Positions 34,181 to 40,591 of a DNA stretch of 64,000 bases are shown here, one piece after another; positions within the stretch are counted from its first letter, which is position 1, and every line of letters begins with the position of its first letter. The stretch lies in NCBI RefSeq assembly GCF_003812745.1, contig NZ_CP033831.1, positions 2,170,001-2,234,000 on the forward strand. The letters are read 5' to 3'. The stretch comes from Serratia sp. FDAARGOS_506 (GTDB lineage: Bacteria > Pseudomonadota > Gammaproteobacteria > Enterobacterales > Enterobacteriaceae). Below the pieces are notes generated by a model. It was not told the origin of the DNA, searched no databases, and saw only the letters and a list, made by a program, of their open reading frames with translations. Position numbers and translations under genes: made by a program.

Positions 34181-34204
34181 TGGGAATTTGTGGGGTAAAG
34201 TGGT
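34181..34204 (+). promoter_or_regulatory. MraZ operator: three direct TGGG-type repeats
   Basis: TGGG at 34181, TGGG at 34191 and TGGT at 34201, spaced exactly 10 bases (one helical turn). In E. coli, MraZ represses its own operon by binding TGGG/TGGT direct repeats at the start of the transcript; the sequence and spacing here fit. Confidence 0.85.
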
Positions 34205-34233
34205 GAAAACGGTCACTAAGGGGTAGCTCAGGA

Positions 34234-34692
34234 ATGTTCCGTGGAGCGACGATGGTCAACCTCGACAGTAAAGGGCGGCTTGCCGTACCTACCCGATATC
34301 GGGAATTGCTCAACGAGGAATCGCAAGGCCAAATGGTCTGTACCATTGACCTCCATCAGCCCTGCCTGCTGCTTTATCCTTTGCCCGAATGGGAAATTAT
34401 TGAACAAAAATTATCACGTCTGTCGAGCATGAATCCCGCCGAGCGCCGCGTTCAGCGCCTGTTGTTGGGGCATGCCAGTGAGTGTCAGATGGATAGTGCC
34501 GGTCGTTTGCTGTTAGCCAATACGCTGCGTCAGCACGCCGGACTCACGAAAGAAGTGATGCTGGTCGGTCAGTTCAACAAGTTTGAACTGTGGGATGAAC
34601 AGACCTGGTATCAACAAGTCAAGGATGATATTGACGCTGAACAGTCGACTCAGGAACCGTTGTCTGAGCGGCTACAGGACTTGTCGCTATAA
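34234..34692 (+). CDS. mraZ: Transcriptional regulator MraZ
   Basis: First gene of the dcw cluster; a ring-forming DNA-binding protein that represses its own operon. The 152-residue product (same as E. coli) has two SpoVT/AbrB-like halves, each with the DxxxR motif: D11-SKG-R15 and D87-SAG-R91. The ATG start ([14 protein letters not shown]) has AGGAA upstream. It is two bases from rsmH. Its likely operator is the TGGG repeat array 30-53 bases upstream. Confidence 0.96.
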
Positions 34693-34694
34693 GC

Positions 34695-35636
34695 ATGCTG
34701 GAAAACTATAAACACACCACCGTCCTGCTGGACGAAGCCGTCAACGGCCTCAACATCCGCAGCAACGGCATATATATCGACGGTACTTTTGGTCGCGGTG
34801 GCCATTCTCGTCTGATTCTGTCCCAACTGGGGCCGGAAGGACGCTTGCTGGCGATTGACCGTGACCATCAGGCGATTGCAGCCGCCAAATCTATTGAAGA
34901 TCCTCGTTTTACCATCGTACACGGCCCATTCTCCGAGTTGTCGCACTATGTGCGGGAACGCGAACTGGTGGGCAAGATCGACGGCGTTCTGCTCGATCTG
35001 GGCGTTTCTTCGCCGCAGCTTGACGACGCGGAGCGCGGATTCTCCTTTATGCGCGACGGGCCGCTGGACATGCGCATGGATCCGTCCACCGGCCTGTCTG
35101 CCGCAGAGTGGCTGATGAAGGCCGAAGCGGACGACATCGCCTGGGTGCTGAAAACCTTTGGCGAAGAGCGTTTCGCCAAGCGTATCGCGCGCGCCATCGT
35201 CGAAAGAAACCGCGTGGAGCCGATGACGCGCACCAAAGAGTTGGCGGATCTGATTGCCGATGCCAGCCCGTTCCGTGAAAAGCACAAGCATCCGGCGACG
35301 CGCAGCTTCCAGGCGATTCGTATCTATATCAACAGCGAGCTGGAAGAGATCGAGCGTGCGCTCGACGGCGCGCTGGAAGTGCTGGCCCCACAGGGCCGTT
35401 TGTCGATCATCAGCTTCCACTCGCTGGAAGACCGCATCGTCAAACGCTTTATGCGTCACCATAGCCGCGGCGCCCAGGTGCCGGCGGGCATTCCGTTGAC
35501 CGAAGAACAGCTGCGCGGCATGGGCGGCCGGACGCTGAAAGCGCTGGGAAAAATGATGCCTTCGGAAGCGGAAGTGGCGGACAACCCGCGTGCGCGCAGC
35601 TCGGTGCTGCGTATTGCTGAGAGGATGCCCGCGTGA
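34695..35636 (+). CDS. rsmH: 16S rRNA (cytosine1402-N4)-methyltransferase RsmH (MraW)
   Basis: SAM-dependent enzyme that makes N4-methyl C1402 in the ribosomal P site. It has 313 residues, same as E. coli. SAM motif [10 protein letters not shown] at residues 29-38, then DRD (about 56) and the catalytic-region [18 protein letters not shown], followed by the family-specific helical insertion and the [11 protein letters not shown] motif. It begins 2 bases after mraZ and overlaps ftsL by four bases (GTGA). Confidence 0.97.
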
Positions 35637-35953
35637 TCGGCAACGAACGCCACGGTTTGGTCGGGGTCATTGGCGGCGACCTGCTGCGCAACGCCAAGAT
35701 CCCCATGATTTTACTGATTGCGTCACTGGTCTCCGCGATTTTCGTGGTGACCACCGCGCACCGCACCCGCCTGCTGACCGCCGAGCGCGAGCAGCTGGTT
35801 CTGGAGCGCGATGCGCTGGATATCGAGTGGCGCAACCTGATTTTAGAAGAGAACGCCCTCGGCGATCACAGCCGGGTTGAACGTATCGCAACAGAAAAAC
35901 TGCAGATGCAACATGTTGATCCATCGCAGGAAAATATCATAGTTAAACAATGA
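35633..35953 (+). CDS. ftsL: Cell division protein FtsL
   Basis: Bitopic inner-membrane divisome protein that works with FtsB and FtsQ to activate FtsWI. 106 residues: short cytoplasmic part, one membrane segment (about 23-43), and a periplasmic coiled coil (about 45-90) ending DPSQENI. The start is a GTG at 35633 overlapping the rsmH stop, with AGAGGAT upstream. It lacks the first 15 or so residues of E. coli FtsL (121 aa); the rest, from HALPGVIG-like to DPSQENI, aligns well. A longer start inside rsmH cannot be ruled out. Confidence 0.93.
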
Positions 35954-35995
35954 ATGGTTTAACCGGAATAATGACACGGAGTAGAAAGGAAACGC

Positions 35996-37759
35996 ATGAA
36001 AGCAGCGCGCCCCGGTAAGTTGAGACGCCAGGAAGATCAGGCCAGCTTTGTCAGCTGGCGTTTTGCGTTGCTGTGCGGCTGCATTTTGCTGGCGATGGTC
36101 GGCCTGATGCTGCGCGTCGCGTACCTGCAGGTCATCAACCCCGATCGTCTGGTGAAAGAAGGCGACATGCGTTCGCTGCGCGTGCAGGAAGTGCCGACCG
36201 CGCGCGGCATGATCAGCGATCGCGCCGGCCGTCCGTTGGCGGTCAGCGTGCCGGTCAATGCGGTGTGGGCGGATCCGAAAGAGCTGAACGAGCGCGGCGG
36301 CATCACGCTGGACAGCCGTTGGAAAGCGCTTTCCGATGCGCTGAACATCCCGCTGGACCAATTATCCAACCGTATTAACGCCAACCCGAAAGGGCGCTTC
36401 GTTTATCTGGCGCGCCAGGTTAACCCGGCGATCGGCGACTACATCCACAAGCTCAAGTTGCCGGGGATCTACCTGCGGCAGGAGTCACGCCGGTACTATC
36501 CGGCGGGGCAGGTGACGTCGCACATCATCGGCGTGACCAACATCGACGGGCAAGGTATCGAAGGCGTAGAGAAGAGCTTCGACCGCTGGCTGACCGGGCA
36601 ACCGGGTGAGAGAACGGTGCGTAAGGACCGCTTCGGCCGGGTCATCGAAGATATCTCCTCCGTCGACAGCCAGGCGGCGCACAACCTGGTACTGAGCGTC
36701 GATGAACGCCTGCAGGCGCTGGTGTATCGCGAGCTGAACAACGCCGTGGCGTTCAACAAGGCCGAGTCGGGCACTGCGGTGCTGATCGACGTGAACACCG
36801 GCGAAGTGCTGGCGATGGCCAACAGCCCGTCTTACAACCCGAACAACATGGCCGGTACGCCGAAAGAGACCATGCGTAACCGTGCCATCACCGATATTTT
36901 TGAACCCGGTTCAACCGTGAAGCCGATGGTGGTGATGACCGCGCTGCAAAACGGCGTGGTGAGAGAAAACAGCGTGCTGAACACCATCCCGTACCGCATT
37001 CAGGGCCACGAGATCAAAGACGTGGCGCGGTACTCGGAGCTGTCATTGACCGGGATCTTGCAGAAGTCGAGTAACGTCGGTGTTTCAAAGCTGGCGTTAG
37101 CGATGCCGTCCTCAGCGTTAGTAGATACTTACTCTCGTTTTGGGCTGGGAAAAGCGACCAATTTGGGGCTGGTCGGAGAAAGCAGTGGCATATACCCAAA
37201 AAAACAACGGTGGTCTGACATAGAGAGGGCCACCTTCTCTTTCGGCTACGGGCTGATGGTAACTCCGTTACAGTTGGCGCGAGTCTATGCAACGATCGGC
37301 AGCCTGGGCGTGTATCGCCCATTGTCGATCACCAAGGTTGACCCTCCGGTCGCCGGTGAACGCGTTTTCCCTGAACCTCTGGTGCGCACCGTGGTGCACA
37401 TGATGGAAAGCGTGGCCTTGCCGGGTGGCGGCGGCGTGAAAGCCGCCATCAAGGGATACCGTATCGCCATCAAAACCGGTACCGCGAAAAAAGTGGGTCC
37501 GGACGGCAAATACGTCAACCGATACATCGCTTATACCGCCGGCGTCGCGCCGGCAAGTAACCCCCGTTTTGCCCTGGTGGTCGTCATCAACGACCCGCAG
37601 GGTGGGAAATACTATGGTGGCGCAATCTCCGCGCCGGTGTTCGGTGCCATCATGGGCGGCGTATTACGTACCATGAACGTCGAGCCTGACGCGTTGCCTA
37701 CCGGTGACAAAAGCGAATTAGTGATTAACAAGAAAGAGGGTTCAGGTGGCAGATCGTAA
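35996..37759 (+). CDS. ftsI: Septal peptidoglycan transpeptidase FtsI (PBP3)
   Basis: Class B penicillin-binding protein that crosslinks septal peptidoglycan with FtsW. It has 587 residues (E. coli 588). One membrane segment (about 21-40), a periplasmic pedestal domain, then the transpeptidase domain with S306-TVK (catalytic serine), S358-SN and K493-TGT. The last residues (after about 575) are the part processed by Prc in E. coli. Codons 360-435 show marked use of rare codons (TTA, TCA, GTA, ATA, AGG, GGA, CGA) unlike the rest of the gene; see the FtsO entry. It starts 42 bases after ftsL and overlaps murE by 14. Confidence 0.97.
37150..37245 (+). ncRNA. ftsO: Probable FtsO-type ORF-internal sponge RNA within ftsI
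   Basis: In E. coli an internal ftsI RNA, FtsO, sponges the sRNA RybB. The matching segment here holds GAAAGCAGTGGC (37178-37189), whose reverse complement begins GCCACTGCTTT, equal to the first 11 bases of RybB as I recall it. A hairpin AGAGA...TCTCT (37222-37240) followed by TTTCGG could form the 3' end. The surrounding codons are oddly rare and, against recalled E. coli ftsI, synonymous sites look frozen. The ends given are approximate. Confidence 0.6.
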
Positions 37760-39233
37760 TTTGCGCGACTTACTCGCCCCGTGGGTGCCGACGGCACCCG
37801 GGCGCGCGCTGCGGGAAATGACATTAGACAGCCGTGTGGCGGCTGCCGGGGATCTGTTTGTCGCCGTTGTCGGCCATCAAACGGATGGACGCCGCTATAT
37901 TCCGCAGGCCATCGCGCAGGGCGTCGCCGCTGTGATCGCCGAAGCTGACGGTCAGGCCGAAGACGGCGCCATCGTTGAAATGCACGGCGTGCCGGTGATC
38001 TACCTGAGCCAACTGAACCAGCGCCTTTCCGCGCTGGCCGGGCGTTTTTACCATCAGCCGGGCGAGCGTCTGCGTCTGGTCGGCGTGACCGGTACCAACG
38101 GCAAAACCACCACCACCCAACTGCTGGCGCAGTGGAGCCAACTGCTGGGCGAAACCAGCGCGGTGATGGGTACCGTCGGCAACGGCCTGCTGGGCCAGGT
38201 GTGTCCGACCGAGAATACCACCGGTTCTGCGGTGGATGTTCAACACGTATTAAACGATTTGGCGGAACAGGGCGCGACCTTCGCCGCCATGGAAGTCTCT
38301 TCCCACGGTCTGGTGCAACACCGGGTAGCGGCGCTGCCGTTCGCCGCCGCGGTCTTCACCAACCTGAGCCGTGACCACCTGGATTACCACGGTGACATGG
38401 CCAATTACGAGGCGGCCAAATGGTCGCTGTTCGCTGCCCACAGCGTGGGGCAGGCGATCATCAACGCGGACGATGAAGTCGGTCAGCGCTGGCTCGGCAA
38501 GCTGCCGGATGCGGTGGCGGTGACGATGCAGGGCAACCTGCAGCCGGGCTGTCACGGCCGCTGGCTGAAAACCACGGCGGTTGACTATCACGACAACGGC
38601 GCCACCGTTCGTTTCAGCTCCAGTTGGGGCGACGGCGAGATCGAAAGCCGCCTGATGGGCGCTTTCAACGTCAGCAACCTGCTGTTGGCATTGGCGACGC
38701 TGTTGTCACTGGGCTATCCGCTGGAGGCGTTGGTGGAAACCGGCAGCCGCCTGCAGCCGGTCTGCGGCCGTATGGAAGTGTTTAACGCGCCGGGCAAACC
38801 GACGGTGGTGGTGGATTACGCCCACACGCCGGATGCGCTGGAGAAAGCGCTGGAAGCCGCGCGTCTGCACTGCCAGGGGCAGCTGTGGTGCGTGTTCGGC
38901 TGCGGCGGCGATCGCGACAAGGGCAAGCGTCCGCTGATGGGTGGCATCGCCGAGCAGTTCGCCGATCGCGTGGTGATCACCGATGACAACCCGCGTACCG
39001 AAGAGCCGCGCGCGATTATCAACGACATCCTGACCGGATTGCTGGACGCCGGGCAGGCGCTGGTGATCCACGGCCGCGCCGAAGCGGTGACCAGCGCCAT
39101 CATGCAGGCGCAGGAACAGGATGTGGTGTTGGTGGCAGGCAAAGGCCACGAAGATTATCAGCAGGTAGGCAACCGCCGCCTGGATTACTCCGACCGCACG
39201 ACGGTCGCCCGACTGCTGGGGGTGCTGGCATGA
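37746..39233 (+). CDS. murE: UDP-MurNAc-Ala-Glu:meso-DAP ligase MurE
   Basis: Cytoplasmic ATP-dependent ligase adding meso-diaminopimelate to UDP-MurNAc-L-Ala-D-Glu. It has 495 residues (E. coli 495). P-loop GTNGKTTT at 116-123; the meso-DAP recognition motif DDNPR (about 413-417); the carbamylated lysine region near residue 224 (YEAAKWSLF). The start is GTG at 37746, with AAGAGGGTTC upstream, overlapping ftsI by 14 bases and indicating coupled translation. It overlaps murF by four bases. Confidence 0.97.
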
Positions 39234-40591
39234 TCCCTGTCTCTCTTCAGACACTGGCTGAGGTATTGAGCGCTGAACTGATCGGCGCCGATTGCCAAAT
39301 TGTCGAGGTGACGACAGACACCCGCAAGGTGACCGCCGGTTGCCTGTTTGTGGCGCTGAAAGGCGAGCGTTTCGACGCTCATGACTTCGCGGCGGATGCC
39401 GTAGCCGCAGGTGCCGGGGCGCTGCTGGTCAGTAAGCGCTTATTGGTGGACGTGCCGCAGCTGGTGGTGCAAGACACCCGTCTGGCGTTGGGGCAGCTTG
39501 GCGCCTGGGTGCGTCAGCAGGTGCCGGCGCGCGTGGTGGCGCTAACCGGTTCCTCGGGCAAGACATCGGTGAAAGAAATGACCGCCGCCATTCTGCGCGA
39601 ATGCGGCGAAGTGTTGTATACCGCCGGCAACTTCAATAACGACATCGGCGTGCCGCTGACGCTGTTGCGTCTGGAGCCGCAGCATGATTTTGCCGTGATA
39701 GAGCTGGGCGCTAACCATATTGGCGAAATCGCTTACACCACCGCATTGACGCGTCCGCAGACCGCTTTGGTGAACAACCTGGCGGCTGCGCACCTGGAAG
39801 GCTTCGGCTCGCTGGCCGGCGTCGCCCAGGCGAAAGGTGAAATCTTTACCGGCCTGCCGGCCGACGGCGTGGCGATCATCAACGCCGATAACAACGACTG
39901 GCCGCACTGGCAAAGCATGCTGGGCGGCAAAACCGTCTGGCGCTTCTCGCCGCAGGCCGCCGAAGGCGTGGACTTCTTCGCGGATAACGTGCGGGTGAAC
40001 GGTGCAGGCACGCAGTTCACGCTGCACAGCCCGTTCGGCACCGCCGAGATCGCGCTGCCGCTGCCGGGGCGCCACAACGTGGCCAATGCGCTGGCGGCAA
40101 CGGCGCTGGCGATGTCGGTGGGTGCCACCCTCGAAGCGGTGCGTCAGGGGTTGAAACAGTTGCAGGCGGTGCCGGGGCGTCTGTACCCGGTAGCGCTGGC
40201 CGAAGGCAAGCTGCTGCTGGACGACAGCTATAACGCCAACGTTGGGTCGATGACCGCAGCGGCTCAGGTGCTGGCAGAGATGCCGGGCTACCGTGTGATG
40301 GTGGTCGGCGATATGGCCGAGCTGGGCGCAGAAGCGGAAGAGTGCCACCGTCAAGTGGGCGAAGCCACCCGTCTCGCCGGCGTCGACAAAGTGATCAGCG
40401 TCGGCGGTTTGAGCCGCGTGCTGAGCGAGGCGTCCGGCAACGGCGAACATTATCAGGACAAGACAGCAGTGATCGCGCGCGTGGCGGAATTACTGTCGAA
40501 ACATGCGGTAATTACCGTGTTAATCAAAGGTTCACGTAGTGCCGCAATGGAGCAGGTAGTACGCGCGTTACAGGAGAAAGCACCATGTTAG
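39230..40591 (+). CDS. murF: UDP-MurNAc-tripeptide:D-Ala-D-Ala ligase MurF
   Basis: Adds D-Ala-D-Ala to complete the UDP-MurNAc pentapeptide. It has 453 residues (E. coli 452). P-loop GSSGKTS at about 107-113, the [13 protein letters not shown] motif, [10 protein letters not shown], and the C-terminal domain with [11 protein letters not shown] and [10 protein letters not shown] start overlapping the murE stop by four bases; it ends 7 bases inside mraY. No irregularity. Confidence 0.97.

Follow-up and report, generated by a model that had tools for sequence, protein, structure and literature searches.

Results

The ftsI gene and its codon usage

The window analysed here, a 64,000-nucleotide stretch of the genome of Serratia sp. 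FDAARGOS_506, carries the ftsI gene, which encodes PBP3, in a cluster with genes that include mraZ, rsmH, ftsL, murE and murF. Its FtsI protein is 100% identical to those of Serratia nevei, S. ureilytica, S. bockelmannii and S. marcescens, which places this DNA in the S. marcescens complex. The features that we identified within ftsI are listed in Table 1.

Table 1. Features of the ftsI gene in the window
Feature	Position	Strand	Evidence
ftsI (PBP3) coding sequence, host gene of the RNA	35996..37759	+	ORF; Pfam Transpeptidase and PBP_dimer
7-bp hairpin, codons 16-22	36041..36059	+	codon conservation; covariation at 36045/36055
Conserved tail GTTTTGCGTTG of the 5' ftsI hairpin	36060..36070	+	codon counts (see text)
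Counterpart of E. coli FtsO (174 nt)	37065..37238	+	MG1655 ftsO mapped by codon alignment; 165/174 identity; synonymous o/e 0.56
Predicted RybB-pairing site GAAAGCAGTGGC; 8-base core 37182-37189	37178..37189	+	own rybB seed; predicted duplex; 88/110 vs 2.2% expected
Constrained stretch beyond the annotated FtsO 3' end	37239..37285	+	low per-codon o/e; 43/47 bases common with E. coli

A preliminary description of this DNA had reported a shift in ftsI, at 37070-37260, towards codons that are rare in the neighbouring genes. This shift is borne out: among 2386 segments of 60 codons from seven genes of the cluster, relative codon adaptiveness reaches its minimum in the segment starting at 37112 (0.327; mean 0.696, sd 0.110), and low values extend to about 37375. 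The codons listed at the time were correct for TCA (2), ATA (2), GGA (2) and AGG (1), and too many for TTA and GTA, which occur twice rather than three times, and for CGA, which does not occur. Three TTA codons and the CGA are reached only if the stretch is extended to 37285, and GTA then still numbers two. The dip is not unique in the cluster. The start of mraZ (34234-34420) falls to 0.372 over 60 codons, almost down to the level of the FtsO region, and the lowest GC3 in segments of 64 codons lies in rsmH, not in ftsI.

A counterpart of FtsO under synonymous constraint

The E. coli MG1655 gene ftsO (b4810, annotated at 92485-92658) maps by codon alignment onto Serratia ftsI without gaps. Within the mapped segment 95% of the bases are identical between Serratia and E. 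coli, compared with 76-80% in the flanking parts of ftsI (758/993 and 377/471). The segment resembles the E. coli RNA known as FtsO or ftsI-decRNA, and as STnc475 in Salmonella (PMC7815308), in its place in ftsI, its sequence, its RybB-pairing core and its synonymous constraint. The proposal that Serratia ftsI contains an FtsO orthologue is supported; an RNA of about 100 nt had been expected, and E. coli ftsO is annotated as 174 nt.

Constraint was estimated by counting codon differences wherever two sequences share the amino acid, with corrections for which amino acid it is and for how far the two sequences have diverged. Of 240 ftsI sequences, including that of the window, 194 exceeded 76% amino-acid identity, and dereplicating these at 90% DNA identity reduced them to 121; removal of 24 sequences with a GC3 of 0.5 or less, from symbionts and AT-richer genera, left 97 Enterobacteriaceae sequences. 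In these the ratio of observed to expected synonymous differences (o/e) is 0.56 in FtsO and 1.05 in the remaining ftsI, and in 2000 column permutations no segment of 59 codons fell below 0.77. All 121 sequences gave values in the same direction (0.68 vs 1.04) in a version of the calculation with faulty amino-acid weights. Outside the family the o/e of these columns is 1.00, as measured in the 24 sequences that remained of 26 after dereplication, all from other families of the order, and the codon conservation in FtsO is therefore not explained by the protein. Synonymous divergence here is not normal across the Enterobacteriaceae, which supports the view that the synonymous sites are kept by a factor outside the protein; the preliminary description had proposed RNA function.

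The constraint covers some 219 nt, from 37067, which is two bases off the 5' end to which FtsO maps, to about 37285. Since o/e is low at many codons up to 37283 and normal from 37286, the constraint continues 47 nt beyond the annotated 3' end of FtsO. In the neighbouring genes, for which 87-90 dereplicated sequences were available, mostly from relatives ranging from Serratia to Photorhabdus, no constrained block was seen in rsmH (0.90-1.08). Both ends of murE, which overlap ftsI and murF, have a low o/e (0.55 each), and near the start of murE, at 37806-37865, there is mild synonymous constraint (0.83, 0.75). Decay-generated RNAs have been reported in E. coli murE and mraZ (PMC6156199). A search of 34200-39300 against Rfam at E<=1 returned a single match, far below the cut-off, at 35711-35871 on the opposite strand.

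Folding predicts that the first bases of the RybB-pairing site are open and that the last four are mostly paired (unpaired probability 0.31, 0.17, 0.03 and 0.05 in Serratia), in Serratia and E. coli alike; the site in E. coli FtsO is stated to be unstructured (PMC7815308), whereas the folds predicted here pair its 3' half. Of a hairpin with a short T-run noted earlier downstream of the site, the hairpin is predicted at about 37209-37239, but it is followed by TTT only and is absent from the output of our scan for terminator-like sites. Covariation inside FtsO was limited to weak pairs, the region being conserved rather than covarying. For 37240-37288 a common fold was unsupported by alifold in the 121 sequences; the single-sequence folds of Serratia and E. 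coli agree.

The rybB gene and its predicted pairing site in ftsI

RybB is a small RNA that is induced by sigma-E and represses mRNAs of outer-membrane proteins. The source genome has one rybB match (G000:C2:3106748-3106826; Rfam RF00110, 107.4 bits against a gathering score of 40), which begins GCCACTGCTTTTC / GCCACTGCTTTTCTTT and lies downstream of GAACTT...GTCTG, a sigma-E-like promoter motif. Directly downstream of rybB is a phage terminase-like ORF (L292, 2-286, minus strand; Pfam Terminase_6N, 94.9 bits), which matches the profile from position 68, so that the start of the domain seems to be missing; the other neighbour is a permease-like ORF of 604 amino acids (Asp-Al_Ex). The rybB start is conserved, with 49 of 50 genes, the 30 best scoring and 20 chosen for diversity, beginning GCCACTGCTTT.

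As the preliminary description had proposed, the ftsI site can form 11 Watson-Crick pairs and one G-U pair with the start of RybB, and the seed in the source genome is the one that had been assumed. The E. coli counterpart does read GAACGCAGTGGC, as had been stated, but its predicted pairing is not limited to 8 bases and resumes past a small internal loop. The two species differ at 37181, where Serratia has AGC (Ser) and E. coli FtsO has CGC (Arg). In predicted duplexes with RybB 1-20, Serratia forms 8+10 pairs around one bulged U (-28.1 kcal/mol) and E. coli 8+9 pairs (-25.4 kcal/mol), while Yersinia reaches -27.6 and Dickeya -13.6 kcal/mol. The long match had been read as a sign of special selection in the Serratia lineage. 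This reading was not sustained, since 37181 is A in 81 of the 121 dereplicated sequences and C (CGC, Arg) in the other 40, an amino-acid difference, and the E. coli duplex is just 2.7 kcal/mol weaker; the extended match is therefore common in the family.

Among the 110 of 121 sequences that keep the amino acids Ser/Arg-Ser-Gly, 88 have the exact 8-base match, where their own codon usage would give 2.2%, and the match is therefore not due to chance. The strongest predicted duplex of RybB 1-16 anywhere in ftsI falls at the site (-22.4 kcal/mol), the next elsewhere reaching -17.6 kcal/mol. The source genome also encodes a second FtsI-like protein with 51% identity (L229, G000:C2:3770603-3772267), whose gene has 7 of the 8 core pairs and no full match. 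Its predicted RybB duplex still reaches -20.2 kcal/mol, so that duplex energy by itself separates the site from the paralogue no more than moderately. The 11-mer AAAGCAGTGGC occurs at four places in the 4.86-Mb genome, including ftsI and rybB; judged by eye, the other two are antisense to an ORF resembling one of the enterobactin locus and sense in a hydrolase-like ORF.

With strict filters, under which weak matches may be lost, rybB was found at E<=0.001 in 125 of 198 genomes of the family, and ftsI could be compared with rybB status (positive at 40 bits or more) in 123 of the 198. The 100 rybB-positive genomes comprise 82 with the full 8-base match, 7 with a match that includes G-U and 11 with a broken site; the corresponding numbers in the 23 rybB-negative genomes are 0, 7 and 16 (p 4e-14 for the full match). 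This co-occurrence is confounded with genome reduction, since most rybB-negative genomes are small (17 of 23 do not exceed 2.4 Mb). Eight of the rybB-positive genomes compared (G239, G159, G323, G255, G270, G289, G272 and G285) have a lower score for the element than for the remainder of ftsI. Both the FtsO codon pattern and the RybB site are lost in ftsI of Dickeya (L086, L088), Prodigiosinella (L110) and their kin (L141, L144, L163), and in the three genomes checked (G239, G159, G323) the RybB seed is intact. A Dickeya/Prodigiosinella group has lost the FtsO element and retained rybB.

A covarying hairpin near the start of ftsI

A second constrained element was identified at codons 16-25 of ftsI, where a hairpin, GCCAGCT-TTGTC-AGCTGGC, is followed by GTTTTGCGTTG. 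The o/e of these ten codons is 0.33 in the 97 sequences and 1.07 outside the family, and the tail codons are conserved (CGT in 95 of the 97, TTT in 94, GCG in 89 and TTG in 95). At the pair 36045/36055 the 121 sequences have G-C (80), A-U (36), A-C (3) or G-U (2). On a tree built without the two RNA elements, these positions change 8 and 9 times over 240 branches and do so together on six of them (hypergeometric 9e-9), corresponding to one clade of 40 sequences and five single tips. Among column pairs no more than 120 nt apart and at least 85% paired, this is the best-supported pair in ftsI, the next having 7e-5; the pair 36046/36054 shows one further double change.

In 43 aligned sequences, 30 of them distinct, 97.6% of cells are paired, compared with 2-49% when the hairpin is slid along the alignment, and double-changed cells are more frequent than in every shuffle (7 vs 1.9). 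Two of the five shuffle measures, the number of pairs with a double change (455/500) and of pair types (500/500), were not raised. The double changes rest almost entirely on one base pair, and 17 of 121 sequences lack the outermost pair. The stability of the hairpin is ordinary, with 15% of 2000 synonymous-codon shuffles equally stable. Our scan for terminator-like sites flags 36041-36070 (7 pairs, tail GTTTTGCGTT, with at most four T in a row), and it returned two sites compared with 2.4 expected in shuffles, that is, no excess. The hairpin is retained in Dickeya, where FtsO has been lost.

Discussion

The RNA that corresponds to this part of ftsI is well described in E. coli. Dar and Sorek reported a 173-nt ftsI-decRNA about 45-fold more abundant than its mRNA, with fewer synonymous changes, which was also detected in E. 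aerogenes and Salmonella, and RNase E was needed for most RNAs of the decRNA set (PMC6156199). Adams et al. named the RNA FtsO, reported that it is bound by Hfq and lowers RybB in E. coli, with the pairing shown by compensatory mutations, and gave wobble identities of 91% vs 67% across 18 gammaproteobacteria (PMC7815308). An identical 3' terminus has been reported in S. enterica, K. pneumoniae, S. flexneri and ETEC (PMC10687069), and the half-life given for FtsO is 12.8 min, compared with 0.6 min for ftsI mRNA (PMC10349824). E. coli and further enteric bacteria thus have a discrete, stable, RNase-processed RNA (PMC6156199, PMC7815308, PMC10687069). Since FtsO and its conservation are already published in these three papers, our finding is known in kind and Serratia is an added orthologue. 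We found no report in the open-access literature that combines FtsO, Serratia and RybB. What is added here is the 47-nt extension of the constraint, the loss in Dickeya and Prodigiosinella and the second constrained hairpin.

We consider it highly probable that the mapped Serratia segment is orthologous to FtsO, the stable ftsI-derived RNA that sponges RybB. What supports the assignment in Serratia is where the segment lies, how closely it matches E. coli ftsO, its constrained synonymous sites, a rybB seed of matching sequence in this genome, and co-occurrence with rybB. By analogy with E. coli, the Serratia RNA would be made, bound by Hfq and active as a sponge. It would most likely be released from the ftsI message by RNase E, the enzyme reported to act on the E. 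coli set. Together with Hfq it would then base-pair with the 5' seed of RybB, using the site in Table 1 and the nucleotides immediately upstream. Such pairing would lower RybB after envelope stress. The rare codons in FtsO are then accounted for because the RNA sequence, and not the protein, fixes the wobble bases. The RybB sponges RbsZ and 3'ETS-leuZ (PMC7815308) share the target RNA and, going by the naming in that paper, differ from FtsO in origin.

It is also conceivable, if rather unlikely, that the RNA is selected mainly or additionally for a role other than RybB, such as pairing with CpxQ or another RNA, its own structure or processing, or the decay of ftsI mRNA. The constraint from 37067 to 37285 exceeds what RybB pairing needs, 37196-37225 (0.41) being as constrained as the RybB site (0.44). 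CpxQ is the second RIL-seq partner reported in E. coli (PMC7815308), and G272 keeps the full core match while its remaining element is below background. However, a mutation of the site only abolishes the effect on RybB in E. coli (PMC7815308), and the site tracks the presence of rybB, with the confounding described above. It is very improbable that the protein or a local codon bias, for example pausing for folding, maintains these codons in place of an RNA. Codon adaptiveness is indeed low in a high-GC gene, and rare ATA and AGG codons are retained across genera, but our statistic is restricted to identical amino acids, and seven FtsI paralogues lack the full core match, two of them with 7 of 8 Watson-Crick pairs. 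We reject this explanation on the value of 1.00 in other families (n=24) and on the Dickeya group, which retains the protein and not the codons. Import of the segment by recombination from an AT-richer donor, which the local fall in codon adaptiveness and GC3 might suggest, is scarcely credible and was rejected, as most of the 97 sequences have these codons too and the segment is nearer to E. coli than its flanks are.

For the hairpin near the start of ftsI, a short recombination event could have moved both bases of 36045/36055 together. However, AGC pairs with GGC in L170 and AAC with GGT in its relatives, a pattern not suggestive of simple import. The hairpin is possibly a palindromic DNA site bound by a protein; G-U states arising from changes in both arms favour RNA. 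The reading that we favour is that of a 3'-end or attenuation hairpin, which may be the 3' stem of ftsL-decRNA, a stable fragment from the same operon whose expression is reported to be conserved in E. aerogenes and Salmonella (PMC6156199). The link to ftsL-decRNA is a guess on our part, and ftsL, considered as part of a larger conserved RNA, contains no constrained block (0.82-1.12). Narrow term searches of the main texts of the open-access literature returned no description of this hairpin, which may be published elsewhere.

Taken as a whole, we give about even chances to the following proposal. In the Enterobacteriaceae ftsI would bear two selected RNA elements. One would be FtsO, constrained as far as 37285; the other would be a hairpin that covaries, has a conserved U-rich tail and lies 46-75 nt into the coding sequence. 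The hairpin would act in the mRNA, most likely in premature 3'-end formation or attenuation between ftsL and most of ftsI, or else as the 3' stem of a stable RNA derived from ftsL, and the output of ftsI would be partly set at the RNA level.

Our results extend the FtsO-RybB pair to Serratia, where the partner is the rybB of the same genome, and the control outside the family shows that the constraint does not come from the protein. The lineages that have rybB and lack the FtsO element, Dickeya and the kin of Prodigiosinella, offer natural tests of the purpose of the sponge. With a covarying hairpin in its first codons, an essential division gene from a heavily studied operon gains a candidate control element. 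The hairpin is the newer lead of the two, and may matter more than the FtsO orthologue itself.
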